The notes under the pieces are model-generated. The model worked only from the letters and a program-made list of their open reading frames with translations, had not been told where the DNA came from and did not search any database. DNA of 64,000 bases, taken from Chloroflexota bacterium. GTDB lineage: Bacteria; Chloroflexota; Anaerolineae; SpSt-313. The translations under genes were made by a program, and so were the position numbers. The stretch is taken from positions 1 to 64,000 of the forward strand of contig JAKPJZ010000119.1 in NCBI GenBank assembly GCA_029553955.1. Reading direction: 5' to 3'. Shown one piece after another: positions 1,381-63,473 of this stretch (position 1 is the first letter of the stretch; each line of letters begins with the position of its first letter).

Positions 1381-1456
1381 GGGGTTAGGGTGGCTATGCG
1401 GCGCGGTTGGCCGGCCCGCGGGCCGGCCAACCGCGCCGCATAGCCACCCTAACCCC
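1381..1456. repeat. Long perfect palindrome P1 (76 bp)
   Basis: Two 38-base arms meet without a loop at 1418/1419 in CCCG|CGGG, with no mismatch. The outer end reads GGGGTTAGGG. The left flank (about 1345-1380) carries the family flank, with ACGCTTCGCG followed by CCGGCACGGGCC. The RAYT relic begins just to the right. Confidence 0.95.
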
Positions 1457-1466
1457 TACTTGGGAT

Positions 1467-1847
1467 ATGACCAGGTGGCTGCCACGCGAAAAGGCCACCG
1501 GCGTGGACGAGAGCCGCCATCGTCGCTCCATCCGCCTGTCGGGCTACGACTATGCCCAGGCCGGTGCCTATTTCATCACTATCTGCACCTACCAGCGCGA
1601 GTGCTTCCTGGGGCAGGTGCACGACGGCTCGTTGCGACTGTCGCCCTGTGGCGAGCTCGTGGACGAATGCTGGCGTGGCCTGCCGCTCCATTTCGCCCAC
1701 GTCGAGCTGGATGCCCATGTGATCATGCCCAATCACATACATGGCATCATTCTCATCATCGACGACGGCGTGTCTGCTGGGCCAAGCGGGATTGCCTCGA
1801 ACCCAAGCTTTCGCCATATCCCGTTGGCACCATTCTCACCGTTATAG
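1467..1847 (+). pseudogene. REP-associated tyrosine transposase (RAYT, Y1_Tnp), C-terminally truncated
   Basis: The N-terminal part matches the RAYT family of HUH single-strand transposases: RRSIRLSGYDY, then a YFITICTYQRE strand, then HVIMPNHIHGIIL with the metal-binding HxH. Intact members are about 150-220 residues and carry a catalytic tyrosine followed by an R-x-YI-x-x-NP region. Neither is visible here. After HGIIL the reading frame turns into unrelated sequence and stops at 1847, so the gene looks broken and inactive. The start at 1467 (MTRWLPREK) avoids the palindrome; an upstream in-frame ATG at 1407 lies inside P1. RAYTs mobilise or maintain REP-type palindromic repeats in other bacteria, so its contact with P1 is suggestive. 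Confidence 0.75.
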
Positions 1848-2056
1848 AACTCTACGCCCTGGAGCGGAATCCTGGTGGCGCGGGCGATGATGTGCTTCGG
1901 CGGATAGAGTCTCAACTGCCCTCGACCCGCCCATTCTATCAGGATTTCAGGCAACTGTATAGACTAGTAACTTGTGCAGATATGTGGGCGTGTTTCGTGG
2001 TGTACCGTGCATCTACACTTGCCCACAGCACGATATGATGGATCGGCGCCCTTCTG
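1848..2056. other. Intergenic remnant, no gene supported
   Basis: Open stretches exist on both strands, but none resembles a known protein or has a convincing ribosome-binding site. It lies between the broken RAYT and the BREX promoter and may be debris from an insertion. Confidence 0.4.
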
Positions 2057-2085
2057 TTGACAGGCATGGGCTAGCCTTGTATATT
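2057..2085 (+). promoter_or_regulatory. Promoter of the BREX cluster
   Basis: TTGACA at 2057-2062, a 17-base spacer, then TATATT at 2080-2085: a near-consensus housekeeping promoter about 85 bases before brxF. No other strong promoter was seen inside the cluster, so the genes may be one transcript. Confidence 0.75.
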
Positions 2086-2170
2086 ACACCCTGTACACTA
2101 CACCTGCTTGGTTCGCCAGGCGCCGACTACCATACGGCGGCCATGGCGGGGCGACGAGCAAGGAGGCATC

Positions 2171-2650
2171 GTGCCCGCATCACTGCCAGAACAGATCCTC
2201 CGCGCTATCGACGACGCGGGCGACCTCTACTACCGCCTCGTCCTCCTCGCGGCGCCCGCCGGCGGCGGCAAGACGGCGGCGCTGCTGGCGCTGGCCGAGC
2301 GGCCCGGCTTCCGTTACCTCAACGTCAACCTCGAGCTGAGCCGGCGCCTGCTCGAGCTGAGCGCGCGCGAACGCTCGCTGGCGGTGCCGCGGCTGCTCGG
2401 CGAGATCGTGGCTGGCGACGGTCACGTGGCCCTGCTCGACAATATCGAGATCCTCTTTGACGTCTCCCTCAAGGTCGATCCCTTGCGCCTGCTGCAGCGG
2501 CTCTCGCGCAACCGCACGGTCGTCGCGGCGTGGAACGGTTCGGTCGAGGGTGGCTACCTGACCTACGCCGCGCCCGACCACGCCGAGCACCGCCGCTATG
2601 CGGCGCGCGAGCTGTTGGTGCTGCGGCCCAAGGCGGGGAGCGGCCTCTGA
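2171..2650 (+). CDS. brxF: BREX type 3 small ATPase BrxF
   Basis: 159 residues. A P-loop APAGGGKT lies near residues 27-34 and an acidic LLDNIEILFD strand (Walker B-like) near 85-95. Size, motif and position directly before a large BrxC fit BrxF, the small P-loop protein of type 3 BREX phage defence. The start is GTG at 2171, with AAGGAGG four bases upstream; the frame stays open further upstream, but no other start has a good ribosome-binding site. It is followed after 24 bases by brxC. BrxF identity rests on context and the P-loop; the biochemical role of BrxF is poorly known. Confidence 0.7.
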   Translation: MPASLPEQILRAIDDAGDLYYRLVLLAAPAGGGKTAALLALAERPGFRYLNVNLELSRRLLELSARERSLAVPRLLGEIVAGDGHVALLDNIEILFDVSLKVDPLRLLQRLSRNRTVVAAWNGSVEGGYLTYAAPDHAEHRRYAARELLVLRPKAGSGL

Positions 2651-2674
2651 TGGTGCTGATAGAAGGAGCGCATC

Positions 2675-5600
2675 GTGAAGTATGGTGACTTGATCCAGTT
2701 CGAGCCCATCGAAACGGCGGTGCAACTGCTCCACGCCGACGAGGGGGCGCGGGCACAGCAACTGGTGTCGACCTATGTCATCTCGGCCGACATGGCCGAG
2801 CGGCTGCTGTTCGTCGCCTTCCCACAGCTCCAGTTCCAGCAGCCGGCCGACAACAAGGGCCTGCTCGTGGTGGGCAACTATGGCACCGGCAAGTCGCACC
2901 TGATGTCGGCCATCTCGGCGGTGGCCGAGCACGCCGAGCTGGCGGGCGCGCTGCGCCATCCCCAGGTAGCCCAGGCCGCCGCGGCCATTGCCGGCAGGTT
3001 CAAAGTAGTGCGCGTCGAGATCGGCTCGACCGAGAACTCGCTGCGCAACATGCTCACCCACGAGCTGGAGGAGCACCTGGCCGCGCTGGACGTGAGCTAC
3101 AGCTTCCCATCGGCGAGCGAGGTGACCAGCAACAAGCCGGCGCTGAGCCAGATGATGGCCGCCTTCCACGAGCGCTACCCCGACCACGGACTGCTGCTCG
3201 TGGTCGACGAGCTGCTCGATTACCTGGCCAGCCGCGGCGACCACGACCTGCGGCGCGACCTCAACTTTTTGCGCGAGCTGGGCGAAGCCTGCCGCGACCT
3301 CAAATTCCGCGTCATCGCCGGCATACAGGAGATGCTCTTCGACAACCCGCGCTTTGCCTACGTGGCCGAGACGATGCGCCGCGTGAAGGACCGCTTCGAG
3401 CAGGTGCTCATCGCGCGCAGCGATGTCAAGTACGTCGTCGCCCAGCGCCTGCTGCGCAAAGACGCCGGGCAGGAGGCCAAGATCAGAGCCCACCTGACGC
3501 CCTTTGCCAGGTTCTATGGCGACATGGGCGCCCGTATGGATGAGTACGTCAGCCTCTTCCCGGTGCACCCGGCCTACATCGACATCTTTGACCGCCTCGC
3601 CGTCGTCGAAAAGCGCGAGGCGCTGCGCACGCTCTCGCGCGCCATGCAGCGCCTGCTCGACCAGGAGGTGCCCCCAGACCGTCCTGGCCTGATCGCATTC
3701 GATAGCTACTGGCAGACCCTGCGCGAGAATGCGGCCTTCCGCGCCATCCCCGATGTAGGCGAGGTGCTCAAGTGCGCCACCCGGCTGGAGGAGCTGGTCG
3801 AGGTCGGCTACCCCAAGGGCAAGGACAAGGCCTTTGCCCGGCGCATCATCCACGGCCTCAGCGTCTACCGCCTGGCGGTGGGCGACATCCAGGCCAAGGT
3901 CGGCCTGACCGCCGAGGCGCTGCGCGATGCGCTCTGCCTCTACGAGCCGCTGGTGGCCGAGCTGGGCGGCGACCCGGCCGACGACCTGCGCGGCGAGGTG
4001 GAGACGGCGCTGCGCCTGATCAGCAGCACGGTCAACGGCCAGTTCATCTCGGCCAGCGAGTACGACGCCGACGGCCGTCCGGGCGGCCAGTTCTACCTCG
4101 ACGTGCACAAGATCGTGGATTATCCTGCCGAGATCGACAAGCGCGCCGAGAGCCTCGACGACGACACGCTGGACCGCTACTACTTTGAGGCCCTCACGCG
4201 GGCGCTCGAGTGCAGCGATCAGACGCGCGTGCCCCACTACCGCATCTGGGAGCACGAGCTCGAATGGCGCCAGCGCAAGGCCTCAAGGCGGGGCTACCTC
4301 TTCTTTGGTGCGCCCAACGAGCGCTCGACGGCGCAGCCGCCGCGCGACTTTTACCTCTACTTCCTGCAGCCGCACCAGCCGCCCACCTTCGACGACGAGA
4401 AGAAGGCCGACGAGGTCTTTTTCCGGCTCACCGGCGCCGACGATGCCTTCCGCCTGCACCTGCGCCGCTACGCCGCCGCCCAAGAGCTGGCCGCCATTCA
4501 CTCGGGCGTCGACAAGGAAGCCTACGAGCAGTTTGCCAGTGACTTTTTGCAAAAGCTGGTCAAGTGGCTGCAGGAGCACATGGCGGGCGCCTTTGCGGTG
4601 ACGCACCAGGGCAAGGCGCTGCCCCTGCTCGAATGGCTCAAGGGCCAGCCCGCCGGCGTTGGCGGCGTGCCGGCCAACGTGCGCGACCTGCTCAACGCCG
4701 TGGCTGCGAGCTGCCTGGCGGCCCACTTTGCCGACCAGGCACCCGAATACCCCAGCTTCTCGGTGCTCGTCACCGCTGCCAACCGCGCCCAGGCCGCACA
4801 GGATGCGCTGCGCTGGCTCAAGGGCACCGTCAAGACGCAGCAGGCTGCGGCCGTGCTCGACGCGCTGGAGCTGCTCGACGGCGACCAGCTCGACCCGCCG
4901 CGCTCGCGCTACGCCAACCACATCCTCGGCGAGCTGCAGAAGAAGGGCGGCCAGGTGCTGAACCGCGCCGAGCTGATCAGCGACGTGCATGGCGTGGAAT
5001 ACCTGGCGCCCGAGCGCTTCCGCCTGGAGCCCGAGTGGGTGGTGGTGCTGGCGGCGGCGCTCGTCTACCGCGGCGATGCCGAGCTGGTCATCCCCGGCGC
5101 CCGCTTCGACGCGGGCATGCTCGATGCCCTCGCGGCCACGCCACTCAGCGAGCTGGTCAATTTCAAGCACCTCGCCCCCGCCAGGGAGTGGCCGCTGCCC
5201 GCGCTGCGCGCGCTCTTTGAGCTGCTCGGCCTGGCGCCAGGGCTGGCCGTGCTGGTGACGCAGGGGCAGGATGGCCCGGCGCAGCAGCTGCAAAAGGCGC
5301 TGGCCGAACGGGTCAACCGGCTGGTGCTGGCGCGGCAGCCGTTGCAGGGCGGCATGCTCTTTTGGGGCCAGCCTGTGCTCACCACTCCCGAGCAGGAGGC
5401 GACGCGCGCCCAGCTCGACGCGCTGAAGGGGTTCCTGGAATCGCTGCAGGCCTACACCACGCCAGGCAAGTTCAAGAACCTGCGCTATACCGAAGCCGAG
5501 ATCAAGGCCCAGGCGCCGGCGGTGCAGGCGCTCGAGCGGCTGGTCGCGCTGCAGGCGCTGCTGGCCGAGCTGGCGCCGCTGACAGGCTACCTGGGCCAGG

Positions 5601-6430
5601 CCGAGGCCGCGCTGCCCAAGGATCATGCGCAGGACCTGCTCGCCGCCATGCTGGAGGCACGCAACGACATCGTGGCCCAGTTGCGCACGCCCGCCAAGCG
5701 AGAAGCCCCAGGCTTTGCGCAGGCCACCCTGCAGCGCCTGGGCGCGCTGAAGAAGGGCTATATCCAGGCCTACGCCAGCCTGCACGCCCGCGCCCGCCTG
5801 GGCACCAGCGAGCATCAGCGGCAGATGGCCTTGCTCAAAGACTATCGCTTGCTGCGCCTGCGCAAGCTGACGGCCATCGAGCTGCTGCCGGCGCACCAGT
5901 TCAAGGCCATCGAGCTGCGCCTGACCGGCCTCAAGTGCTGCCCGGCGCTGCTCACCGCCGAGCTCGAGGCCTACCCCATCTGCGGCCACTGCGGCTACAA
6001 CCCGGCGACCGAGCCGCTGTACATGAGCGTCAACGCCATCCTCGACAGCGTCGACCAACAGATGAGCAAGATGCTGGCCGACTGGACTCAGATCCTGCTG
6101 CAGAACCTCGACGAAGCGGCCACGCCCCAGAACCTGGCGCTACTCGGCCCCGAGCGCCGGGCACTGGTCGAGGCCCTGCTCGCCTCGCGCACGCTGCCCT
6201 ACGAGCTGAGCGACGAGCTCATTGCCGCCATCCGCGAGCTGCTGGCCGGGCTGGTCAAGGTCGTCATCGCCATCGACGAGCTGCGCGCCGTACTGGCTGC
6301 CGATGGGGCGCCGGTCACGCCGGCAGAGACGAGGAAACGCTTTGAGCAGTATCTGGCCGCGCTGACGAAAGGCCTGGATCCGGGCAAGGTTCGCGTCGTA
6401 GTGCAAGACAACAGGGGCGAGCCGGCCTAG
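2675..6430 (+). CDS. brxC: BREX large ATPase BrxC/PglY
   Basis: 1251 residues, the usual size for BrxC. Walker [10 protein letters not shown] is at residues 67-75 and a Walker B-like [12 protein letters not shown] near 172-183. These mark the AAA+ domain at the N terminus; the long remainder is mostly helical. Near residue 1075-1100 is a cysteine cluster ending in CGHCGY that could bind zinc. BrxC is an essential part of BREX, which methylates host DNA and blocks phage replication. The GTG start at 2675 has AAGGAG 7 bases upstream. It sits between brxF and pglXI as in type 3 systems. The family call is firm; the zinc site is inference. Confidence 0.85.
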
Positions 6431-6516
6431 CAGGCTGTCGCAAAACCATCCCGCTGGCCGCAGCATCCCGGTAGCAGCCGGGCACTTTGCTGCGCTGCCG
6501 CCCGGCTCTGAGCCAG

Positions 6517-6612
6517 GAGGGGTTCTTGGTTGGCTGGCCCTGCTGGCCGCCCCTGGCGCGCCTGCGGGCGCGCCAGGGGCGGCCAGCAGGGCCAGCCAAC
6601 CAAGAACCCCTC
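6517..6612. repeat. Long perfect palindrome P2 (46-base arms, 4-base loop)
   Basis: Left arm 6517-6562, loop TGCG, right arm 6567-6612, no mismatch. This is the longest of the family and the only one with a loop. The outer end reads GAGGGGTTCTTGG. The right flank (6613-6665) holds the conserved flank A on the reverse strand (GCTTCGC and GCCCGG). The left flank (about 6445-6516) holds flank B, itself able to pair GCCGGG with CCCGGC. It lies inside the BREX operon between brxC and pglXI. Confidence 0.95.
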
Positions 6613-6687
6613 ACAAGGGCCTATGCCGGGCTCGTGCGAAGCATGCCAGCCGGCACTCGCCCGGATTGTTGACAGTGAGGAGAGGCC

Positions 6688-12744: not shown

Positions 12745-13100
12745 AGACCTGTCTGCGGCTCGGCGTTGCTGCTTGCGCCGCGCGCTGCGCCGGGCAGTGA
12801 ATGCCGCGCTGCACGCAATCTTGCCATGCTTGGCCACCCACTGCAGCACCATTTGTTCCTGCTGCAGCGGGTCGAACCCCGCCTGGCGCACCTAGTCGGC
12901 CGGCTGGCCCAGGCGCCGGTGCCAAGGGGGGCATGCTGCGCGCCCGGCCCGCAAATTGCTGAGAGGCCCGCGGGCGGCGTTCACGCTTGCGGCGGGCATG
13001 CCTGGGCCGCAAGTGACCTCGGCAGGCTGCCCGAATTCCAGGCTGTCGCCCGGGCTGTGGCCGGGTATTGGGCGCTGCCGCCACCCGGCCCTGACCCGGG

Positions 13101-13178
13101 AGGGTTTTTGGAGGGTGTCTGGCGTCGTTGCCCGGCCCGCGGGCCGGGCAACGACGCCAGACACCCTCCAAAAACCCT
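13101..13178. repeat. Long perfect palindrome P3 (78 bp)
   Basis: Arms of 39 bases meet without a loop at 13139/13140 in CCCG|CGGG, no mismatch. The outer end reads AGGGTTTTTGG. Flank A is on the right in reverse (13179-13235) and flank B on the left (about 13040-13100), where CCGGG and CCCGG stretches can pair. It separates the BREX cluster from the next operon. Confidence 0.95.
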
Positions 13179-13278
13179 TCAAAGGGGACCTGCACCGGGT
13201 CGCTGCGGAGCGTGCAGCCCGGTCGGCCAGGGTATCCGAGGCTGGTGCATGGCCACACCGGCCGAGGGAGGGGCGAGG

Positions 13279-14640: not shown

Positions 14641-14755
14641 ACCGCAAAGACGCAAAGACGCCAAGACGGCGCTAAGGAACTGGACTGGTGGATCGTCCCG
14701 CCCTGCTCCTTTGCGTTTCCTTCGCGTTTCCTTTGCGCCTTTGCGCCTTTGCGGT
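14641..14755. repeat. CGCAAAG-type inverted repeat
   Basis: Starts directly after the HAD stop with ACCGCAAAGACGCAAAG and ends with CTTTGCGCCTTTGCGGT. The middle is not paired. Same family as 12661, 17103, 18563 and 27750. Confidence 0.85.
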
Positions 14756-14807
14756 GAATCGCCCCCCGTTTTGGCATGGCTCTTGCTCTCAAGCTGCGGA
14801 GGGGGCG

Positions 14808-16196
14808 ATGCAGGTGCGCACGACGGTGGCCATTGGGGCGGGCAAGGCGGTGCGGTTCCTCAGCCGGCGGCTGCAGCGCGGCGGCGGCACGACCTACCCC
14901 GGCGAGTTGGCGATGCACGTCGACCCTCGCCTGCTGGAGCGGCTGGCCGGCCGGCTGCCCGAGGGCGCGCTGGTCGTGACCGGCACCAACGGCAAGACGA
15001 CGACCTCGCGCATGATCTCGGGCGTGCTGCGCCGGGCGGGGCTGCAGCCAGTGCACAACCGCTCGGGAGCCAACCTGATCGAAGGGGTCGCCTCGGCGCT
15101 GGTAGCCGCGGCCACGCTCTGGGGCGGCCTCACCGGCGACATCGGCGTCTTTGAGGTCGATGAAGCTACGCTGCCCCTGGCGGTGAGCGCCACCCGCCCC
15201 CGCGCCGTGGTGGTGACGAACCTCTTCCGCGACCAACTCGACCGTTTTGGCGAGCTCGACCACGTCGCCGCGCTGTGGCGCCGCGCCTTGGCCGCGCTGC
15301 CGGCCGCATCGACGGCGGTGCTCAATGCCGACGACCCGCTGGTGGCCGCCCTCGGCGCCGCGACGCCCGCCCACGTGCTCTACTTTGGCATCGAAGACAC
15401 GCGCCTCGGCTCACCCGGCCTGCAGCACGCCGCCGACTCGAAGGACTGCCTGGCCTGCGGCGCGCCCTACGCCTACGAGGTGGCCTACTATGGCCACCTG
15501 GGCAAGTACCGCTGCCCCGGCTGCGGCGCGATGCGCCCTCAGCCGCAGGTCTACGCGGCGCGGCTGGAGCTGCACGGCACCGCGGGCAGCGTCGTCAGCA
15601 CCGTGCTGCCGGCGGGCGCGCTGGAGGTGCACGTGGGGCTGCCGGGGCTGTACAACGTCTACAACGCCCTGGCGGCGCTGGCCTGCGGCGCGGCGCTGGG
15701 CCTGCCGCAGGAGGCGCTGCGCGACGGGCTGCAGGGCTTGTCGGCCGCGTTCGGCCGCATCGAGCGCATCCCCATCGCGGGCCGGCAGGCCTTTCTGGCG
15801 CTGGTCAAGAACCCCGTGGGCTGCAACGAAGTGCTGCGCATGCTCCTGCTCGACGAGGCGCCCAAGGACCTGCTGATCGTCATCAACGACAACCTGGCCG
15901 ACGGCACCGACGTCTCGTGGCTGTGGGACGCGGATTTCGAGCTCTTGCAGGGGCGCGTGCGCTCGGTGGTCGTCGCCGGCACCCGCGCCGAGGACATGCG
16001 CCTGCGCCTCAGGTACGCCCTGGTGGACCCGCAGAAGGTATCGCTGCAGACGGACCCGGGCGCAGCGCTCGAACGCGGCCTGGCCAACGTCGCCCCCGGC
16101 GAGACGCTCTACATCCTGCCCACCTACACCGCCATGCTCGCCATGCGCCAGGTGCTGCAGGAGCGGGGGTATGTGGGGAGGTTTTGGGAGGATTGA
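14808..16196 (+). CDS. murT: Lipid II isoglutaminyl synthase, ATPase subunit MurT
   Basis: 462 residues. It is a Mur-ligase family protein: the ATP-binding GTNGKTTTSRM is near residues 58-68 and the Mur central-domain motif FEVDEATLP near 113-121. Two CxxC pairs (about 214-245) form the zinc ribbon typical of MurT. The C-terminal domain is the MurT-specific one. With GatD it converts D-glutamate of lipid II to D-isoglutamine in the cytoplasm. The start at 14808 follows GGAGGGGG; gatD lies 142 bases downstream, separated by a short repeat. The pair implies an amidated peptidoglycan. Confidence 0.92.
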   Translation: MQVRTTVAIGAGKAVRFLSRRLQRGGGTTYPGELAMHVDPRLLERLAGRLPEGALVVTGTNGKTTTSRMISGVLRRAGLQPVHNRSGANLIEGVASALVAAATLWGGLTGDIGVFEVDEATLPLAVSATRPRAVVVTNLFRDQLDRFGELDHVAALWRRALAALPAASTAVLNADDPLVAALGAATPAHVLYFGIEDTRLGSPGLQHAADSKDCLACGAPYAYEVAYYGHLGKYRCPGCGAMRPQPQVYAARLELHGTAGSVVSTVLPAGALEVHVGLPGLYNVYNALAALACGAALGLPQEALRDGLQGLSAAFGRIERIPIAGRQAFLALVKNPVGCNEVLRMLLLDEAPKDLLIVINDNLADGTDVSWLWDADFELLQGRVRSVVVAGTRAEDMRLRLRYALVDPQKVSLQTDPGAALERGLANVAPGETLYILPTYTAMLAMRQVLQERGYVGRFWED

Positions 16197-16199
16197 CGT

Positions 16200-16330
16200 G
16201 AGGCGTGAGGCGTGAGGCGTGATACGTGACCGTGCGGCCCATTGCGTGTTCCCTTCACCGATGCCACGCGGACGGAACACGCAACACGCAGCACCGCCAC
16301 GCCTCACGCATCACGTATCACGCATCACGG
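16200..16330. repeat. GTGAGGC-type imperfect inverted repeat
   Basis: Three short direct copies of GTGAGGC at the left face CACGCCTCACGCATCACGTA-like copies at the right, so the whole murT-gatD gap can fold. A simpler relative of the type GTAATGC is at 52657-52680. Confidence 0.7.
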
Positions 16331-16338
16331 ATGGGCCT

Positions 16339-17100
16339 ATGAGACTGACGATCTGCCACTTGTACCCCGATCAGATGAACATCTATGGCGATCGGGGGAA
16401 TATCATCGCGCTGAGCCGGCGGGCGGCGTGGGCCGGGCTGGAGGTGGCCGTGCGCCGGGTGGAGCTGGGCGAGCGGCCCGATTTCCGCACTTTCGACATC
16501 CTCTTTCTGGGCGGCGGGCAGGACCGGGAGCAGGCGCGGGTCGCGCGCGACCTTGCGGAGGTCAAGGGGCCGTCGCTGCGCGAGGCGGTGGAGGATGGGC
16601 TGGCGCTGTTGGCGGTGTGCGGCGGCTACCAGCTCTTGGGTCGTTCCTTCATAACCGCCTCGGGCGCGGTGCTGCCGGGCATCGAGCTGTTCGACGCCTC
16701 GACGGAGGCGGGGCGCACGCGCTGCATCGGCGACGTCATTGTGCGCTCGGATGTGGCCGGGGCGCCGCGCACGCTGGTGGGCTTTGAGAACCACAGCGGC
16801 AAGACCTACCTGGGCGCGCGCGCCGCGCCGCTGGGGCGGGTGCTGTTTGGCCACGGCAACAACGGCCAAGACGGCTCGGAGGGCGCAGTCTACAGGCATG
16901 CCTGCGGCACCTACCTGCACGGGTCGCTCTTGCCCAAGAACCCCTGGCTCACCGACCTGCTCATCCGCCGCGCCGTCGAGCGGCGCTACGGCCCGGCCGC
17001 CGCGCTCCCTCACGTCGATGACGAGGTCGAGATGCGGGCCCACGAGGCGGTCATTGCCCGCATCCGCGCGCGGGGCAAGCTCGGCAAAGGCGCGACATAG
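16339..17100 (+). CDS. gatD: Lipid II isoglutaminyl synthase, glutamine amidotransferase subunit GatD
   Basis: 253 residues. It is a CobB/CobQ-like class I amidotransferase: YPDQMNIYGDRGN at the N terminus is typical of GatD, the catalytic cysteine is Cys94 in LAVCGGYQLLG, and the catalytic histidine is near 194 in GTYLHGSLLP. It feeds ammonia from glutamine to MurT. The start at 16339 has only a weak ribosome-binding site, so translation may depend on murT. Confidence 0.92.
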   Translation: MRLTICHLYPDQMNIYGDRGNIIALSRRAAWAGLEVAVRRVELGERPDFRTFDILFLGGGQDREQARVARDLAEVKGPSLREAVEDGLALLAVCGGYQLLGRSFITASGAVLPGIELFDASTEAGRTRCIGDVIVRSDVAGAPRTLVGFENHSGKTYLGARAAPLGRVLFGHGNNGQDGSEGAVYRHACGTYLHGSLLPKNPWLTDLLIRRAVERRYGPAAALPHVDDEVEMRAHEAVIARIRARGKLGKGAT

Positions 17101-17102
17101 GG

Positions 17103-17270
17103 CGGGGTTCACCGCAAAGGCGCAAAGACGCAAAGGGGACGCAAAGATAAGGGAAAGCACTGATGCACCCCACCGGCGTGAGCACGTTGGCCCCAGCCCG
17201 CCTGGGCGCAGTTGACCTTCCCCTCCCTTCGCGTCCCCTTTGCGCCTTCGCGCCTTCGCGGTGAACCCCG
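17103..17270. repeat. CGCAAAG-type inverted repeat
   Basis: Left end CGGGGTTCACCGCAAAGGCG, right end its near-complement. A second half-element of the same family (CGCCAAGGCG to CGCCTTGGCG) follows at 17277-17363. Together they fill the gap between two convergent genes. Confidence 0.85.
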
Positions 17271-17374
17271 TCCTCCGCGCCAAGGCGGCGCGAAGGACTC
17301 GGACAGGTGGGGCGCCTCCCCTTTTCCCCCTTGGCGCTTCCTTTGCGTCTTTGCGCCTTGGCGGTGTAGCCCCG

Positions 17375-18130
17375 TCAGCCCCTCTCCGCCACGGCGATGA
17401 GGTCGCCGCTGGCCTCGGGGTCGAAGGGGCTGCCGTCGTAGGCGCCATAGAAGCGCGCGGCGCCCAGGCCGGCGCTGTGCAGTGCCTCGGCCAGATCCTT
17501 CTGGAAGATGGGGCGCAGCTCGGTGGCGCCCACGCGGTAGCGCCAGGCGTCGCCCGTGCGCTGCAAGGTAACGAGGTTGAAGGTCAGCGTGGCCTCGTGG
17601 AAATCCATAAAGCGGAAGAAGAGCCACTCGCGCTCGCCCTCGCGGTGCGATTGCAGCGGCATAAAGCGCTCGCGGCGCGGCCAGACGGCGTCATAGTTGC
17701 GGTTCTGGATCACTACCAGGCCGCCGGGCCGCAGCAGCTCGTGGAAATCGGCCAGAGCGGCGCGCTCGGCCTCGGGTGTGAGCAGGTGGGGCAGGCTGTT
17801 GCCCAGGCAGAGGATGGCGTCGAACTCGCTGGGGAAGGCCGGCGCCAGCTCGCCCAGGCCCGCGGCCACAAAGGGCACATCGCGGCCCTCGGCCTCGGCG
17901 GCAGCGCGCGCCCGCTCGACCATGGGCAGGCTCGAGTCGGCGCCGGCGGCCTCATAGCCGCGTGCGGCGAGCGCCAGGGCGTGGCGGCCGGTGCCGCAGG
18001 CGGCATCGAGCACGCGGCGCACGCCATGTTCGTGGAAGAGCCGCTCGAGGAAGGGCAGCTCGTGGGTCAGCCGCGCCGGCCAATCGACAAAGCGGTCGTA
18101 ATCGGCCGCCAGGGCGTCATACAGTGCCAT
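17375..18130 (-). CDS. Class I SAM-dependent methyltransferase
   Basis: 251 residues. The SAM motif I VLDAACGTGRHALALA is near residues 41-56, followed by an acidic strand end (GADSSLPM) and ILCLGNSLPHLL (motif IV region). The N terminus YDALAADYDRFVDW is common to small-molecule methyltransferases of this class. The start at 18130 is chosen over an upstream in-frame Met because GGAGGTGG precedes it. Substrate unknown; no neighbour suggests one. Confidence 0.8.
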   Translation of the reverse strand: MALYDALAADYDRFVDWPARLTHELPFLERLFHEHGVRRVLDAACGTGRHALALAARGYEAAGADSSLPMVERARAAAEAEGRDVPFVAAGLGELAPAFPSEFDAILCLGNSLPHLLTPEAERAALADFHELLRPGGLVVIQNRNYDAVWPRRERFMPLQSHREGEREWLFFRFMDFHEATLTFNLVTLQRTGDAWRYRVGATELRPIFQKDLAEALHSAGLGAARFYGAYDGSPFDPEASGDLIAVAERG

Positions 18131-18150
18131 CAGCCACCTCCAGGCTCGGT

Positions 18151-18299
18151 TTGAACCGCGAAGGGCGCCAAGATCGCGAAGGAGGCACGAGAGGATCAAG
18201 CCGTCTTTGTGCTCGCCGCTGGCGGCGAGCTGCCGGTATGCCCTCGACAATCAAGAAACTTGGCGCGCCTTTGCGTGCTTGGCGCCCTTCGCGGTTCAA
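18151..18299. repeat. Inverted repeat with 22-base perfect arms
   Basis: TTGAACCGCGAAGGGCGCCA begins the left arm and the exact complement ends at 18299. Variant of the CGCAAAG family (CGCGAAGGGCGCCAAG subtype), also at 47856. Its right arm overlaps the stop of the small gene at 18296. Confidence 0.9.
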
Positions 18300-18538
18300 T
18301 CCTTCTTCCCTCTGAGGCGGCGCAGCTTTTGGGCGCCGACGCACTCGGCGGCGTGGCTGCACCAGTCGATGCACGAGGCGCCGCGCTCGCGGGGCACCAC
18401 TTGGCCACACTGCAAACAGCGCGCCACGAGCTCATCGCTCCAAATCTCCACCTCGTGCCCGCAGCGCGGGCAGGCGATGTACTCGGGGCGCACCTCGCGG
18501 AACAGCCGCGCCCCCGGGCAGTTGCTCCCCAACGTCAT
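18296..18538 (-). CDS. Small zinc-ribbon protein
   Basis: 80 residues. CPRCGHEVEIWSDE and CLQCGQVV form a four-cysteine zinc ribbon, followed by ASCIDWCSHAAECVG with three more cysteines. I know this pattern as a conserved stand-alone or tail domain in anaerobic bacteria and archaea, sometimes labelled phosphohydrolase-associated; its function is unknown. The start at 18538 follows GGAGGTGGG. It lies downstream of two ferredoxins on the same strand, with a repeat between. Confidence 0.75.
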   Translation of the reverse strand: MTLGSNCPGARLFREVRPEYIACPRCGHEVEIWSDELVARCLQCGQVVPRERGASCIDWCSHAAECVGAQKLRRLRGKKD

Positions 18539-18562
18539 CTCCCACCTCCGAATGCGGGGCTC

Positions 18563-18698
18563 CACCGCAGAGGCGCGAAGGCGCCAAGGCAACGCCAAGG
18601 TTCAACTACAGGGCGATGGCTGCCGGCCACCCCTCCGAGTTGCTCCAAAGGTTCTTGCCCCTTGGCGTCGTCTTTGTGCCTTTGCGTCTTTGCGGTGA
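18563..18698. repeat. CGCAAAG-type inverted repeat
   Basis: ACCGCAGAGGCGCGAAGG at the left, CTTTGCGTCTTTGCGGT at the right, with an internal GCCAAGG/CCTTGGC pair. It lies between two co-directional minus-strand genes. Confidence 0.8.
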
Positions 18699-18708
18699 AG
18701 GCCCGTCC

Positions 18709-19086
18709 CTATCCATGAATGAGTGCGGGCAGGCAGCGGGTGCAGACCCACAGGCTCTGGCCCTTGGCGCGGCAGGGCAAGAGCACGGCGTGCTCCTCCG
18801 AATCGCCGCAGCGGAAGCAGGTTTGCGCCATGTAGCTCGGCCCGCGCTCCTCGGCGCGCGCCTCGGCCGCCTCAGGGTCGAAATCGGCCGCCTCGCGCAC
18901 CTCGATGCTCAGCGCGCCGGTGGGGCACACCGCGAGGCAAAAGCCCGCCCCGTCGCAGAGCACGTCGTCGATCACACGCGCCTTGCCGTCCACAATCTCG
19001 ATCGCCCCCTCGGCACAGGGGGTCACGCACAGGCCGCAGCCGGTGCACTTTTCCTCGTCAATGCGCACAATCTGCCGCTTAGGCAT
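18709..19086 (-). CDS. Ferredoxin-like 4Fe-4S protein with C-terminal cysteine motif
   Basis: 125 residues. CTGCGLCVTPC (about residues 14-24) is a full 4Fe-4S motif, and CDGAGFCLAVCP (about 44-55) is a second whose second ligand position holds Ala. The C-terminal part adds CFRCGDSEEH and CTRCLP, which could bind metal. Probably a cytoplasmic electron carrier in an anaerobic or microaerobic pathway. Start at 19086 with AGGAG upstream; it overlaps the preceding ferredoxin gene by eight bases. Confidence 0.8.
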   Translation of the reverse strand: MPKRQIVRIDEEKCTGCGLCVTPCAEGAIEIVDGKARVIDDVLCDGAGFCLAVCPTGALSIEVREAADFDPEAAEARAEERGPSYMAQTCFRCGDSEEHAVLLPCRAKGQSLWVCTRCLPALIHG

Positions 19087-19324
19087 GTTGCTCTCCTGAT
19101 AATTGCTGGTCTTCGGCAAACTCGACCTCATAGGGCAGGCCGATGGCCCCCTCTGGGCAGAGGTCCTCGCAATCGGCGCAATAGGCGCAGGCCTCCGGCT
19201 CGGCCAGGGCCGCGCGCCCGGCGACGAGCTGCAGCGCGCCCGTAGGGCAGGCGGCGACGCACTGCCCGCAGCCGCTACACAGCGCCGCGTCGATGATGGG
19301 GTATGCCTGGGTGTTCTGGCTCAT
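19079..19324 (-). CDS. Two-cluster ferredoxin
   Basis: 81 residues. Two cysteine groups, CSGCGQCVAACP and CAYCADCEDLCP, each with the CxxCxxCxxxC pattern, mark a small 2[4Fe-4S] ferredoxin. Start at 19324, with GGAGAAG upstream. The reverse-strand sequence TACAAT at 19358-19353 may be its -10 box. It forms an operon with the overlapping ferredoxin downstream. Redox partner unknown; the aldehyde oxidoreductase at 44726 would need a ferredoxin but is far away. Confidence 0.85.
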   Translation of the reverse strand: MSQNTQAYPIIDAALCSGCGQCVAACPTGALQLVAGRAALAEPEACAYCADCEDLCPEGAIGLPYEVEFAEDQQLSGEQHA

Positions 19325-19424
19325 ATCGTCTTCTCCTGCCGATGCTGCCCTCATTGTAGCATAGTGGGCCAGCCGAGTCTGTGACTAGAGTCGCATTCTG
19401 CGGGAGGGCCGGAGCTCTCTCAGA

Positions 19425-19485
19425 AGGGACGGCTTCACCACAAAGGGCACAAAGGAGTTGTACCCTTTGTGGTGAAGCCGTCCCT
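19425..19485. repeat. Inverted repeat with 23-base perfect arms
   Basis: AGGGACGGCTTCACCACAAA begins the left arm; the complement ends at 19485, with a 15-base loop. The hairpin is strong but has no U-run. It is related to the CACCGCAAAG family. Confidence 0.9.
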
Positions 19486-21647: not shown

Positions 21648-21708
21648 GCACAGGCCACCCGGCGGCACCGGCCCTTACGCTCCGCATCCGCCCGGTGCAG
21701 ATCCCTTG

Positions 21709-21786
21709 TGGGGTTTGGTTGGGCCGTCCTGTGCTGCTGGCCGCCCGCGGGCGGCCAGCAGCACAGGACGGCCCAACCAAACCCCA
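21709..21786. repeat. Long perfect palindrome P4 (78 bp)
   Basis: Arms of 39 bases meet without a loop at 21747/21748 in CCCG|CGGG, no mismatch. The outer end reads TGGGGTTTGG. Flank A is on the left (21655-21708; ACGCTCCGCA and CCCGGTGCAG). It lies in the gap between divergent genes, so it cannot be a simple terminator for either. Confidence 0.95.
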
Positions 21787-27749: not shown

Positions 27750-27822
27750 TTCACCGCAAAGGCGCAAAGAGGACGCAAAGGGAAGGGAGTTCTTCGCGTT
27801 TCCTTTGCGTCTTTGCGGTGAG
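27750..27822. repeat. CGCAAAG-type inverted repeat
   Basis: TTCACCGCAAAGGCGCAAAG left, CCTTTGCGTCTTTGCGGTGA right. It is the shortest copy of the family here. Confidence 0.85.
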
Positions 27823-30432: not shown

Positions 30433-30524
30433 CCCGACACGCTGTGCACTAGCCCAGGAGCACGCCCCAGAGCTGCCGGTGACCGGGTTACCCGCTTCGT
30501 ACGAGTCCGTGCCGGCCCCTTATT

Positions 30525-30600
30525 GGGGGGTGATGATGGACCGGCGAGGTATGGCGGCCCCGCGGGGCCGCCATACCTCGCCGGTCCATCATCACCCCCC
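30525..30600. repeat. Long perfect palindrome P5 (76 bp)
   Basis: Arms of 38 bases meet without a loop at 30562/30563 in CCCCG|CGGGG, no mismatch. The outer end reads GGGGGGTGATGATGG. Flank A is on the left (30480-30524; CCGCTTCGTACGAG) and flank B on the right (30601-30665; GCCGGGGCCAGCGGAGC). Confidence 0.95.
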
Positions 30601-30708
30601 GTTCCCGGTTAGCGCCGGGGCCAGCGGAGCAGATGCCCGGCGAAACCCCGGGTTGTCGGCGCCTTGGTGGTATAGCCTCAACTCAGCGCTATCCCTCTCA
30701 TCATGTGG

Positions 30709-38672: not shown

Positions 38673-38779
38673 GAGGCGGCTCGTGCGGGGCACGGACCGC
38701 CGACAGAGCAATCTCATAGCTGCAAGCGCAGCGCAGCAGCTTGCACGCATTGCACAAGCCCGGTGCGGGCCCCTCAAGG

Positions 38780-38857
38780 AGGGGTTTTGGGAGGCTGGCA
38801 CCGATGCCCTGCCCCCCGCGGGGGGCAGGGCATCGGTGCCAGCCTCCCAAAACCCCT
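38780..38857. repeat. Long perfect palindrome P6 (78 bp)
   Basis: Arms of 39 bases meet without a loop at 38818/38819 in CCCCG|CGGGG, no mismatch. The outer end reads AGGGGTTTTGGG. Flank A is on the left (38742-38779; AAGCCCGGTGCGGGCCCC). It lies 50 bases before the next gene. Confidence 0.95.
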
Positions 38858-47855: not shown

Positions 47856-47941
47856 CTGAACCGCGAAGAGCGCCAAGCGCGCGAAGGCGTCGCCAAGGGA
47901 TAACATACCTTTGTGCTTCCTTGGCGCTCTTCGCGGTTCAG
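47856..47941. repeat. Inverted repeat with 22-base perfect arms
   Basis: CTGAACCGCGAAGAGCGCCA begins the left arm; the exact complement ends at 47941. CGCGAAGGGCGCCAAG subtype, sister of 18151-18299. Confidence 0.9.
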
Positions 47942-56199: not shown

Positions 56200-56496
56200 A
56201 TGGAGGAGAACCAGGGAACCAGCGTGGTGACGCGCAAGGGGCAGGTGACCATTCCCATGCGCGTGCGCCGCATGCTCAAGATTGAGCCCGATGACCGGGT
56301 GGCGTTCTACACAGAAGGCGTCAGGGTCTACCTGACGGTGGTCAAGGAGACTCTCGAGTCGGCCTACGGCGCCGTCGAGCCGCTGCACAGGCCGGAGGAT
56401 TTCCACGCGCTGCGAGACCGCGCCATTGACGATCATGCCGCCGAGACGCTGCGCGGGATGGGTTCTGAGGAGGCAGAGGAGAGGCCGCAGCCATGA
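56200..56496 (+). CDS. AbrB/MazE-type antitoxin
   Basis: 98 residues. The swapped-hairpin domain at the N terminus reads TSVVTRKGQVTIPMRVRRMLKIEPDDRV-like (residues 7-33), the standard SpoVT/AbrB DNA-binding fold. The C-terminal half (RPEDFHALRDRAIDDHAAE) would clasp the toxin. It overlaps the toxin gene by four bases. It should repress its own promoter together with the toxin. Confidence 0.9.
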   Translation: MEENQGTSVVTRKGQVTIPMRVRRMLKIEPDDRVAFYTEGVRVYLTVVKETLESAYGAVEPLHRPEDFHALRDRAIDDHAAETLRGMGSEEAEERPQP

Positions 56497-56900: not shown

Positions 56901-57036
56901 ACCCCATGGTCCATACGCCCCTGGCCTTGACTCGCCCGCTTAAATCGGCTATCTGTCAGAGCGCGTAACCTGCCGGAGTACGTCTGGGCGCAAGCCGGGC
57001 CTAGCGCTCCGCCGACATCCGGCACCATACCAGGGC

Positions 57037-57118
57037 AAGGGTTTGGCGGGCAGGAAGCGCCTGGCCTGGCCGGCCCGCGGGCCGGCCAGGCCAGGCGCTT
57101 CCTGCCCGCCAAACCCTT
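57037..57118. repeat. Long perfect palindrome P7 (82 bp)
   Basis: Arms of 41 bases meet without a loop at 57077/57078 in CCCG|CGGG, no mismatch. The outer end reads AAGGGTTTGGCGG. Flank A is on the right in reverse (57119-57165; GCGCGAAGCATG) and flank B on the left (56975-57036; GCCGGGCCTAGCGCTCCGCC). Confidence 0.95.
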
Positions 57119-57206
57119 CCAAAGGCCCGCTCCGGGCCGGCGCGAAGCATGAAACCCGGAAGGCAGCTTTGGCAGGCCGCGAGTCATGGCCATCTGGGAG
57201 GTCTGT

Positions 57207-58991: not shown

Positions 58992-59022
58992 CCCTGTCTT
59001 CGACGCCGCAAATGTGCCTGTA

Positions 59023-59070
59023 GTGCGGGAGAGCGCAGTTGGGGCCGCCCCCGGCTGCGCTCTCCCACAC
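59023..59070. terminator. Hairpin after the GH2 gene
   Basis: GTGCGGGAGAGCGCAG pairs with CTGCGCTCTCCCACAC with one mismatch; an inner GGGGCCGCCCC adds to it. No U-run. Confidence 0.45.
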
Positions 59071-59127
59071 TGCGAACGAGATCGCCGCACATCGACGATT
59101 GAAGCGCGCCATGCCCCCTCCCCCCTC

Positions 59128-59176
59128 TTGCATTTTCTCAAAGGAATGAGTATACTTAGGTTACAGGATTGTAACC
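59128..59176 (+). promoter_or_regulatory. Promoter and operator of the sbcD-sbcC-like operon
   Basis: TTGCAT (59128-59133), 17 bases, TATACT (59151-59156). Directly after it, at the likely start of transcription, is GGTTACAGGATTGTAACC (59159-59176), a 7-base perfect inverted repeat suited to a repressor. The leader to the ATG is about 230 bases and includes another GGCGGTTC-type palindrome near 59280-59305. Confidence 0.7.
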
Positions 59177-59393
59177 TACGCAACCTGGTGGTTACGCATT
59201 CTTCCTGCCGGAGGAGTATCCTCGCAGTCTACACCCCACTCCCCCGCTCCTCCGGCGAGTCCCGGCCACTGAGGCGGGGGGCGGTTCCCGAACCGCCCCC
59301 ACAGATGCGGAGGCAACGCTGCATGTTCACCGCTGCCTGTTACCCGGCGTGCTCTTCCCTCACACGCCCCTACAGATTCGGAGGTAACGCTCC

Positions 59394-60563
59394 ATGTTCA
59401 CTATCCTGCACTGCGCCGACCTCCACCTCGAAGCCAGCTTTGCCTCGAGCCGGGTGCCGCCAGCGATGGGCAACTGGCGCCGCGCCAGCCTGCAGGCGGC
59501 GCTCGGCCGCATCCTTGCCCTGGCCCGCGAGCACCGCGCCGATGCGGTGACCATTGGTGGTGATCTCTACGAGCACGAGTACGCCCTGCCCGACACGGCC
59601 GAGTTCCTGCGCGAGCAGTTCGCGGCCCTGGCGCCCATGCGGGTGTTCATCGCGCCGGGTGAGTGCGACCCCTACGGCGACGACTCGCTCTATGCGCTGA
59701 CCCGCTGGCCCGAGAACGTGGTCGTCATGCCGCCCGGCCCCCTGAGCTGCTATGAGCTGGCGCCCGGCCTCTGCCTGTGGGGTGCGGGCTATGCCCCCGG
59801 CGTGGCCGATGTGCTGGCGGGGTGGAGCAGCGACCGCGACGGCACGCAGCTGCTGCTCATGCATGCAGCCTGGGCGGCCGAGCCCGAGGCCGACGGGCCG
59901 TTCCGCGTGGATGCGGCCGCGCTGCAGGCCGCCGGCTTTGACCTGGCACTGTTGGGCCACGAGCATAGCGCCCGTAGGGGCGGTTCGGGAACCGCCCCTG
60001 GTTCGGGAACCGCCCCCGACGGCCAGGAGGGCGGCACCCGCTACGTCTACCCAGGCAGCCCCGAGCCGCTCGAGGCGCGCGAGACCGCCGGCGAGCACCT
60101 GGCGGTGTTGGTGAGCGTGGACCAGGGAGCCTGCCAGACGCGCGCGCTGCCGGTGGCCCAGTGGCGCTACCTGGAGCGGCGCGTTGACCTCTCGGGCTCC
60201 AGCACCATCGAAGAGGCGGCAGCGTTGGTCCGCGTGGAGCTGCGTGAGGCAGGCGCGGTGGACCAGGGCACAATCTGCCGCGTGGTGCTGACTGGCGTGC
60301 GCCGCTTTGACCTCGACATGGAGGCGCTGCGGGGTTTGGTCGATACGGCCGCCTGTGTGCAGTACGACGCGGAGCAGGCGCTGGGCTTTGGCGTGGAGCA
60401 ACTGGCGTACGAAGCAACGTTGCGCGGCCAACTGGTGCGGCGTATGCAGGGCCGCCTGGCGGGCGCAGCTTCCCAGAACGAGCGTGCCCTGACGCTGCGC
60501 GCCCTCGACCTGGGGCTGCGTGCCCTCGAAGGAAAGCAGGTGCGACCCTATGAGAGTGGCTGA
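59394..60563 (+). CDS. SbcD/YhaO-like metallophosphoesterase (DNA repair nuclease subunit)
   Basis: 389 residues. Phosphoesterase motifs: HCADLHLE near 6-13, GGDLYEHE near 55-62, LLLMHAAW near 149, LLGHEHS near 184. The usual GNHD is GECD (PGECDPYGDD near 88), so a conserved Asn ligand and the catalytic His are both changed. Between 59974 and 60017 an in-frame palindromic insert (encoding a GGSGTAPGSGTAPD loop) follows GHEHS. The gene overlaps the SMC-like partner by 14 bases. Partner pairs of this kind cut DNA ends and hairpins. Confidence 0.8.
   Translation: MFTILHCADLHLEASFASSRVPPAMGNWRRASLQAALGRILALAREHRADAVTIGGDLYEHEYALPDTAEFLREQFAALAPMRVFIAPGECDPYGDDSLYALTRWPENVVVMPPGPLSCYELAPGLCLWGAGYAPGVADVLAGWSSDRDGTQLLLMHAAWAAEPEADGPFRVDAAALQAAGFDLALLGHEHSARRGGSGTAPGSGTAPDGQEGGTRYVYPGSPEPLEARETAGEHLAVLVSVDQGACQTRALPVAQWRYLERRVDLSGSSTIEEAAALVRVELREAGAVDQGTICRVVLTGVRRFDLDMEALRGLVDTAACVQYDAEQALGFGVEQLAYEATLRGQLVRRMQGRLAGAASQNERALTLRALDLGLRALEGKQVRPYESG
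59974..60017. repeat. Palindromic element inside the SbcD-like gene
   Basis: AGGGGCGGTTC (59976-59986) and GAACCGCCCCT (59989-59999) pair; a second GGTTCGGGAACCGCCCC follows. The same GGCGGTTC palindrome lies in the operon leader near 59280. Frame is kept. Confidence 0.75.
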
Positions 60564-63390
60564 GCTGCGCATCGAAGGGTTCGGCCGTCTGGCGAACCTG
60601 TCCCTTCGCTTCGCCCCGGGCCTGAACCTCGTCTATGGACCCAATGAAGCGGGCAAATCGACCCTGCTGGAGGCCCTGCTGGCCACGCTCTACGGCTTTG
60701 TCGATGAGGGCGCAGCCGCAGCCTACAGGCCGAGCAGCGGGGCGGGGGTGTACGCGGCGTCGTTGACCTATGCGCTCGACGCCGGCGCAGCCTACCGGGT
60801 GACGCGGCGCTTCCTGCCCCGGGCCGAGGCGTCGCTGCACTCGTACCCTGCCGGCGAAGACTGCTCGGCCCTGCTCACGGGCCGGCGCTCCCTGGCCGAG
60901 GCGCATTGGGGGCTCGGGCGCGAGGGCTTTGAGGGCCTCTGTGTCGCGCGCCAGGGAGGGCCGCTGGCGCTGCAGGCCTCGGCGGCGCTGGCCGGCGCGC
61001 TGCGACAGCGACTGGCCACGGCCGCACCCGACGCAGCCGTATCGCGGGCGACAGGGCTCTTGGAGACGGCGCTGAAGGAGCGCGTGGGCGCGCCCCACAG
61101 CCGCTCCCGACCCCTGTCGCAGGCGTTGGCCAGGCTGGCACGCCTGGAGGACGAGCGGCAGCGCGCACTGCAATTGCGCCGCGACCTCGTGCCGCGCCTG
61201 ACGGCCGTGCGTGTTGCGGCCGAGCGGCTCGAGGCGCTGGATGGGCGGCGGGCCGCGCTGCTCACGCGCCAGGCCGAGGCGGCCGCGCGCGCCGCACAGG
61301 TGTCTCCACCGGAGGGCGCCGCGGTGAGCGCTGAGGTGCAGCGCTGCGAGGCGGAGGTGGCGCGCTGGCAGGCCTGGGCGGGCTTCCCGGTGGTCCTGCG
61401 CGACACGCTGCTGCGGCTCAGCGCGCAGCACACGCGCTTGCAGGAAGACTGCGCGCTGGCCGAGCGCCGTGGCCGGCGCGCCCAGGAGGCCCTGGCCCAG
61501 CTAGAGGCGCAGGAGGCCACCCTGCAAGAGCGCCTCGCACCACCGCCGGCGACGGGGCTGGCCCCGGCTGCCGAGTTTGCCCGCATCCAGGCACTGGCCA
61601 GCGAGTGGCGCATGGCCAGCGAGCTCGAGTGGTCGGCCAACGAGCGTTACCGCACAGCCCAGCCGGCGCTGGAGGCGCTGCTCCAGCGCCTCGCCGAGGA
61701 AGGCAAGGAGGTGGAGCCGCTGTTGCCGGCCGGCCCCGCCGGGCTGACGCTGGTGCAGGAGCGGCTGAAGAAGGCCCGCGAACGCCTGGCGCAGGCCAAG
61801 GGCGCGCTGGCGCAGGCCACCGCGGCCTGGGCGCGCCTGGGCATGGAGGAGGCCGAGTTCCAGCGGCTGGAGCACGCCGTGCGCGGTTTCCGCAGCAACG
61901 ACCGGCCCGAGCCCCGGCCCGAACCCCGCCAGGGCCGCCGTTGGCTCTCGGCGCTCTTGGGCCGCGGCGAGCCCGAAGAGCAGGCGCCGCCGGGGCTGGC
62001 GTCGTATGGCGAGGTCCAGCCAGTCTACGCCGAGATGGCGCGCTGCCGCGACGAGGCCGAGGCGGCGCAACGCGCGCTGAGCGATATCGAGGCGGCGACC
62101 CTCTGGCAGTTGGGCCGGCTGCTCGGCGGCACGCTCGAGGAGGCTGCCTTTGAGCAACTGCGCACCAGGCTCGAGCGCCACCTCCGCGCCCAGACCGAGC
62201 TCGAGCAGCAACGGATCACCGTCTCCGGCCTGCGCTCCGAGCTCGACCAGGCGCGCCAGCGGCGCGAGAAGGCGCAGACGGCGCTGCAGATCGAGCTGGG
62301 CCGGCTGGGCTTTACGGCGACCGAGCTACACAAGGCGCTGGCCGACTATGTGCGGCAGCACGAACAGCAAAAGCCGGCCAGCACGGAGCGTGTGGGAGGG
62401 GAACAGTCACACCGCCGCGCCGAGACGGAGCTGGAGCTGCTGCGCGCCCGCGCCGAGGCGCAGCGCATCGAGCTGGAGCGCTGGCAGGAGAAACAGGCCG
62501 CCCTGAGCGAGATCGACACCCAGCTCACGGCGCTCCTCACCCAGGCCGGCATCAGCAGCAACAGCAGCCTGGAGCGGGCGCTGGAGGCCTTTGACGAGGG
62601 CGTGGCGAACTACCGGCGCTGGGAGCAGGCCAAGACGACGCTCGACGCGGCCATGCGCTATCAACGGACCCTGTTCGAGGCCCGCCCACGCGCGCGCCGC
62701 GGTCACGGCGATGCGGCCGCGGCCGGCACCGAGGTGGCCGCCTGCGCCGCCGAGCTGGCGCACTTGGACGAGGAGCGGGCGCAGGCACAGGAGGATCACA
62801 GCCGGCTCGAGGCCGAGGTGCAGCAGGCCATGGTCGGCGTGCGCCATCTGGCCGAGATCGACGAAGAGATCGCGCTCGAACAGGGCAACGTGCGCCGGCT
62901 GGAGGAGCTCCGCAGCGCCCTCGAGCTGGCACGCGACGAGTTGGTCGGGGCCGGGCGCGACTTTCAGCAGCAGTTCACGCCACGGCTCGAGGCGCTCGTG
63001 CGGGAGGGGCTCAAACAGGTCACGGCCGACCGCTACGTGGAGGCCGTCGTCGACGAGGCCAACCTGGCGCTGACGGTACACGCGCCGGGGCTGGGTGGCC
63101 TGGTGCCGCCGGCCTGCTTGGGCGCGGCCACGCGCGACCTGGCCCACCTGCTGCTGCGCGCCGCGCTCGTGCGACTGATGGGCCACTGCGGCGAAAAGCT
63201 GCCCCTGCTGCTCGACGAGCCGCTCGCCCAATGCGACGCCGAGCACCAAGAGCGCGCGCTCGGCTTCCTGGCGCACGTGGCCGAGGAGGCGCAGGTCGTG
63301 CTCTTTACCGCCGACGAGCGGGTCAAGGCACGCTTTGAGCAAGCGTCCAAGTCGCCACGCCACCAGTTGCACCTGCTCAACGTAGCCTGA
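60550..63390 (+). CDS. SbcC/YhaN-like AAA ATPase
   Basis: 946 residues. Walker A VYGPNEAGKSTLLEALL is near 32-48, right after the RecF/SMC-type IEGFGRLANLSLRF start. Most of the middle is coiled coil rich in Ala, Glu, Arg and Leu, interrupted near 450-500. The C-terminal ATPase half holds the ABC signature region (LGAATRDLAHLLLRAALV near 857) and Walker B LPLLLDEPLAQCD near 882-894. Together with the phosphoesterase it should form an SbcCD/Mre11-Rad50-like complex. It overlaps the upstream gene by 14 bases. Its stop codon touches palindrome P8. Confidence 0.88.
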   Translation: MRVAELRIEGFGRLANLSLRFAPGLNLVYGPNEAGKSTLLEALLATLYGFVDEGAAAAYRPSSGAGVYAASLTYALDAGAAYRVTRRFLPRAEASLHSYPAGEDCSALLTGRRSLAEAHWGLGREGFEGLCVARQGGPLALQASAALAGALRQRLATAAPDAAVSRATGLLETALKERVGAPHSRSRPLSQALARLARLEDERQRALQLRRDLVPRLTAVRVAAERLEALDGRRAALLTRQAEAAARAAQVSPPEGAAVSAEVQRCEAEVARWQAWAGFPVVLRDTLLRLSAQHTRLQEDCALAERRGRRAQEALAQLEAQEATLQERLAPPPATGLAPAAEFARIQALASEWRMASELEWSANERYRTAQPALEALLQRLAEEGKEVEPLLPAGPAGLTLVQERLKKARERLAQAKGALAQATAAWARLGMEEAEFQRLEHAVRGFRSNDRPEPRPEPRQGRRWLSALLGRGEPEEQAPPGLASYGEVQPVYAEMARCRDEAEAAQRALSDIEAATLWQLGRLLGGTLEEAAFEQLRTRLERHLRAQTELEQQRITVSGLRSELDQARQRREKAQTALQIELGRLGFTATELHKALADYVRQHEQQKPASTERVGGEQSHRRAETELELLRARAEAQRIELERWQEKQAALSEIDTQLTALLTQAGISSNSSLERALEAFDEGVANYRRWEQAKTTLDAAMRYQRTLFEARPRARRGHGDAAAAGTEVAACAAELAHLDEERAQAQEDHSRLEAEVQQAMVGVRHLAEIDEEIALEQGNVRRLEELRSALELARDELVGAGRDFQQQFTPRLEALVREGLKQVTADRYVEAVVDEANLALTVHAPGLGGLVPPACLGAATRDLAHLLLRAALVRLMGHCGEKLPLLLDEPLAQCDAEHQERALGFLAHVAEEAQVVLFTADERVKARFEQASKSPRHQLHLLNVA

Positions 63391-63473
63391 CTGAAAAGGG
63401 GGGTGTGGACGGTTCTGCCCCGGCCCCGCCGCGGCGGGGCCGGGGCAGAACCGTCCACACCCCCCTTTTCAGT
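63390..63473. repeat. Long perfect palindrome P8 (84 bp)
   Basis: Arms of 42 bases meet without a loop at 63431/63432, no mismatch. The outer end reads ACTGAAAAGGGGGG, with the last base of the sbcC-like stop codon at one tip and the stop of the convergent gene inside the other. Unlike the other copies it has no flank A or B. Here a role as two-way terminator is plausible. Confidence 0.95.

Follow-up and report, generated by a model that had tools for sequence, protein, structure and literature searches.

The window analysed here, a stretch of 64,000 nucleotides, is contig 186 of the 5.37 Mb genome of an uncultured Chloroflexota bacterium, assembled in 272 contigs (92% complete, 8% contaminated). 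A preliminary description had placed in it eight perfect palindromes with arms of 38–46 bp, and all eight were reproduced at the same coordinates. The near-loopless design was also borne out, seven having no loop and the palindrome at 6517 a 4-nt centre (TGCG), and CCGCGG is central in seven of the eight. Two of the loopless palindromes, 1381..1456 (arms of 38 bp) and 21709..21786 (arms of 39 bp), occupy divergent gene gaps, each with a REP-like hairpin on the minus strand pointing away from it (1341..1367 and, with a GGA loop, 21668..21695). The palindrome at 6517..6612 (arms of 46 bp) separates the BrxC and PglX-type genes and stands between a B-type hairpin with a GCA loop (6478..6505, minus strand) and an A-type hairpin with a GAA loop (6626..6653, plus strand); further out, a terminal inverted repeat of the element (6427..6442, minus strand) contributes, through its CTAG, the TAG stop codon of BrxC. 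Beyond BrxA, a loopless palindrome with arms of 39 bp (13101..13178) is likewise bordered by a B-type hairpin (13061..13088, minus strand) and an A-type hairpin with a GGA loop (13195..13222, plus strand). Three more loopless palindromes follow at 30525..30600 (arms of 38 bp), 38780..38857 (39 bp) and 57037..57118 (41 bp). The last has hairpins on both sides, with a GGA loop at 56995..57022 (minus strand) and a GAA loop at 57132..57159 (plus strand). The palindrome at 30525 has a B-type hairpin with a GGA loop at 30615..30640 (plus strand) and a diverged one at 30483..30510 (minus strand), and that at 38780 has a truncated or diverged one at 38739..38763 (minus strand), these latter two being read from the sequence.

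The eighth palindrome (63390..63473, arms of 42 bp) falls outside this family. It reads AAAAGGGGGG...CCCCCCTTTT and has the stop codons of two convergent genes at its ends, and on these grounds it looks like a bidirectional terminator between them. The interval 59394–63390, which ends at this palindrome, holds a metallophosphoesterase gene and, after it, a gene for a Rad50/SMC-like ATPase. The proposal of one family with a shared design therefore stands for seven of the eight, while 63390 has no such flank and is terminator-like. The two flanking motifs reported for the family, A and B, are real, but represent two variants of a single REP-like hairpin, each oriented outward, and their inventory required correction at 38780 (truncated) and at 30525 (one of two diverged). 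The arms had been called unrelated; most in fact share GGGGTTTTGG...GGCCGCCCG and are diverged relatives. The window also contains dispersed repeats of the ACCGCAAAGGCGCAAAG type, in inverted pairs with mostly longer spacers and imperfect arms (14641–19485, 27751–27821 and 47856–47941).

Anatomy, abundance and distribution of the element

A single dispersed element accounts for seven of the eight palindromes, which form the cores of its copies. A census of 835 kb of this genome, part of it picked around pattern hits, contained 92 palindromes that are near-loopless and have arms of 30 bp or more; 79 were perfect, nine had one mismatch and four had two. Setting aside a separate CCTGACAGGT family left 89, with arms of 31–71 bp and total lengths of 64–142 bp. 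Scaling up gives roughly 590 for the whole genome, a figure that inherits the partial choice of the sample around hits. Comparison DNA from other genomes (710 kb) yielded a single palindrome with arms of this length, and its source was a relative from the same family. Since this is the only one of that length in the comparison DNA, and since the probability of a perfect 30-bp arm at 68% GC is about 1e-17 per centre, a chance origin is excluded.

The best-preserved copies are symmetric units of 173–316 bp that run from a terminal inverted repeat through a REP-like hairpin, the palindrome and a second hairpin to the opposite terminal repeat. The hairpin follows the pattern CCGG-n6-GC(GNA)GC-n7-CCGG; with the loop left free, 84 were found in the sample, and 62 of these adjoin a palindrome. 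Their polarity is fixed: in 62/62 the palindrome lies on the 5' side, 2–19 nt off, and the hairpin points away from it. The triloop is GNA in 49 of the 62, and GNA loops closed by GC are very stable in DNA. With a looser pattern, 27 of the 89 palindromes have hairpins on both sides, 31 on one side and 31 none that is recognisable, and copies without a palindrome also exist. One subfamily has a sharp common outer end, TCCGACAGGCTGCTAG, beyond which the DNA of different copies shares nothing; the same motif stands inverted at the opposite end of the best-preserved copies. Rfam returned no match at gathering score anywhere in the window.

Gene context was assessed with a home-made gene caller for 90 palindrome centres and 545 intergenic gaps. 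No centre (0/90) fell inside a gene, in agreement with the preliminary description. Palindromes occupied 61 co-directional, 15 divergent and 12 convergent gaps, against 412, 70 and 63 available, so that convergent gaps were not in excess (12/88 palindromes versus 63/545 gaps). Apart from 63390, neither the placement nor a T-run after the stem suggests intrinsic terminators, the arms ending mostly in CCAAAACCCC. The earlier view that ordinary termination does not explain the palindromes thus applies to most copies, with 63390 as the exception.

Palindromes of other kinds were seen in the same DNA. A second family has the core CCTGACAGGTCTCCGGAGACCTGTCAGG and outer arms that are variable yet paired (L014:2743, L017:16297, L018:6893 and others). 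Perfect palindromes beginning with GTAGTGCGGGAGAG or AGTGAGGGAGAG and without an adjoining REP-like hairpin (L001:3043, L008:5814, L128:14273 and L002:16351) are possibly a third.

The element is restricted to one family. A search with the strict hairpin pattern gave 397 hits in this genome, 36 and 35 in its family relatives G001 and G002, and no more than six in any of 295 further genomes from the class; in viral contigs the REP pattern was not found. The version of the unit in G001 has arms of 28–30 bp. Loss of SbcCD was considered as a cause and rejected: SbcD is below the model cut-off in the three family genomes and also in 99 others of the 298, and the DNA sampled from five of these, all in other families, held no palindrome with arms of at least 30 bp and four of 24–26 bp, so the loss is not sufficient. 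The two family genomes that were read, of the three, have Mre11/Rad50-like pairs instead, identified by eye.

Relation to REP systems and RAYT genes

The preliminary description knew of no described family with this make-up. That claim is not supported, because REPINs and BIMEs are close in having an inverted REP-like doublet, a self-pairing middle and a RAYT in the genome. In the REPINs of Pseudomonas fluorescens SBW25 (PMC3116915), as here, inverted REP hairpins surround a self-pairing middle, the copies are intergenic and number in the hundreds, and the genome encodes a RAYT; compensatory changes in the REPIN middle were reported as common (PMC3116915). The present element differs from them in its perfectly palindromic middle with arms of 31–71 bp, its terminal inverted repeats (in one subfamily), the lack of a GTAG tag, the GNA triloop and the phylum. 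REP dimers tagged with GTAG or CGTC also have structured spacers, have been reported in Chloroflexi and in some cases lie within palindromes (PMC3733652), but here neither tag is present and the hairpins enclose the palindrome instead of lying inside it. BIMEs and the E. coli REPtron (PMC8266576) share a REP and inverted REP joined by a linker, an imperfect GC-rich hairpin with internal mismatches and an HUH transposase of the same family; however, TnpAREP of E. coli needs GTAG and the linker there is not a long palindrome. Our element combines inverted REP-like hairpins, a self-pairing spacer and high-copy intergenic occurrence, and lacks the conserved 5' tetranucleotide of these systems: GTAG and CGTC were absent within 12 nt 5' of the hairpin in all 62 cases (0/62). 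Its nearest known kinds are REPINs and those REP dimers whose spacers are structured or which lie inside palindromes; it is set apart from them by the missing tag, the GNA loop, the terminal repeats and the very long perfect core. Searches of open-access papers, some of them directed at other questions, yielded no description of such an element.

Two RAYT genes scored above the NF047646 cut-off in this genome. One lies 174 bp from a complete unit; around the other, no unit occurs within the 4 kb read. The link between element and RAYT accordingly depends on one adjacency, for which the probability of coincidence is a few per cent, given an element about every 10 kb. Neither transposition nor an empty site with a target duplication was seen in the sampled DNA. 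At one site shared by G001 and G002, the palindrome and one hairpin are present in G001 and absent in G002, with AGGG at the junction, which looks like a deletion.

Paired change of the arms and its explanation

Comparison of each palindrome with its nearest copy identified 102 arm positions that had changed in both arms, all of them complementary, and six that had changed in one arm, counts that come from related copies and hence are not independent. Clean indels are mirrored in both arms as well (e.g. L008:13082 and L015:6177). Mismatch between the arms of a palindrome is 0.4% per site, against flank differences of 11–42% in the closest gap-free copies, a comparison restricted to pairs without gaps plus a few with clean indels, because the gapped list was too permissive. 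Adjoining arms differ at approximately 0.5% of sites and the arms of repeats with spacers of at least 5 nt at 5–8%, roughly a tenfold difference, although different families are compared. Among orthologous short hairpins the cases are few, with one paired change (in a 15-bp hairpin) and six unpaired changes in others, several of which are probably chance hairpins in genes. As changes hit both arms together (102 to 6), either copying from one arm to the other (template switching, for example) or very strong selection on pairing is needed and finds support in these data, as had been argued from the perfect pairing in the window.

Under purifying selection alone, the palindromes would work as hairpins in RNA or DNA (as terminators, stabilisers of mRNA or protein sites), mutants that break the pairing would be eliminated and compensatory mutations would be independent events. 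The arms are more alike between copies than the flanks, the palindromes fold far more strongly than shuffled sequences and some of them, such as 63390, look terminator-like, all of which fits this explanation. We nevertheless consider it unlikely, because mirrored indels are not expected under selected RNA pairing, the palindromes are not enriched between convergent genes, most of them lack a loop and the sequence of their arms varies freely. G-T pairs are also nearly absent (five G-T and five A-C/C-A among the 92 palindromes), which counts against selected RNA pairing since G-U would be tolerated. Alternatively, every copy may be young, with snap-back copying making the second arm at each transposition and no later correction. 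The perfect arms of 79/92 palindromes agree with this, and snap-back alone would also yield mirrored changes between copies. Near-identical arms in flanks that have diverged by 11–42%, and the many decayed hairpins beside perfect arms, suggest greater age, although the flank divergence would be compatible with youth if palindromes move or undergo conversion independently of their flanks; on balance we are doubtful that youth explains the pattern. All-or-none perfection of arms is also known from the inverted repeats of nematomorph mitochondria, for which template switching was proposed by the authors (PMC6649704), but those repeats lie in coding DNA of animal mitochondria and are not a dispersed element. 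Template switching was likewise proposed to generate compensatory changes in the two arms at once (PMC8794818), there for RNA genes with short stems and with evidence for maintenance that is circumstantial by the authors' own account.

Two further explanations concern how the element spreads and whether the palindromes are real. In a MITE-type element, a DDE transposase would read the terminal inverted repeats and the hairpins and RAYT would be incidental, and paired, outward terminal inverted repeats do bound the best-preserved copies of one subfamily. No target duplication was evident by eye at nine pairs of these repeats, however, and matches to them in the sampled DNA (at most one mismatch) all lie at the ends of elements or remnants and none at a transposase, which makes this mode of spread quite improbable. 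The palindromes could also be an assembly artefact, through fold-back or collapse of imperfect arms. Contig C9 (G000:C9:1-30840) equals its own reverse complement exactly over all of its 30,840 bp, with an element palindrome at its centre; this fold-back is most likely a misassembly and shows that errors at palindromes do occur in this assembly. Contig C270, moreover, begins in a palindrome. Yet at dozens of loci the unique DNA differs between the two sides and operons continue across, 13/92 palindromes retain mismatches, no bubble should arise from arms shorter than 43 bp even at k=21, and relatives assembled independently contain the unit as well. In one independent assembly the contig names indicate k=141, which exceeds its palindromes of 59–64 bp. 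We therefore regard an artefact as very improbable. No palindrome was present at the starts of 16 contigs sampled from this genome, mostly 1–2 kb long, so that this sample gave no sign of contig breakage at palindromes here. Many matches of G002 contigs to G001 palindrome-region DNA start at base 1 of the contig (C72, C469, C100, C455, C443 and C312), which suggests that these elements interrupt short-read assemblies.

We therefore favour, as the probable explanation, a dispersed, non-autonomous REPIN/BIME-like element with RAYT-type spread whose arms are kept identical by arm-to-arm copying. We infer mobility, the link with a RAYT and the copying mechanism alike; RAYT-driven spread of the REPIN/BIME type appears to be the best-supported mode, and copying, as read from the paired changes, the most likely process. 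The element would likely spread as a folded single strand at replication forks, its GNA-loop hairpins presumably being recognised by a RAYT-type HUH transposase. If the palindrome folds during replication, the polymerase may switch template onto the other arm, so that a mutation in one arm would be erased or copied into its partner, and selection may contribute. A broader proposal is that adjoining inverted-repeat arms are actively homogenised across the whole genome in this lineage, the near-perfect palindrome of 64–142 bp in this REPIN-like element being maintained by that activity; we offer this tentatively, as a possibility that falls short of being probable.

The evolution of paired stems in the absence of long-lived mismatched intermediates has been addressed with circumstantial evidence (PMC8794818). 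The many diverged copies of one long palindrome in a single genome allow a direct count of paired and unpaired changes. In E. coli, cleavage by SbcCD makes long palindromes lethal (PMC4245961, for one of 460 bp), and given this lethality a bacterium that tolerates hundreds of shorter palindromes is worth study. The apparent breakage of short-read assemblies at these palindromes would hide them from surveys. If the arms are indeed actively homogenised, template switching would have a natural reporter in this element.
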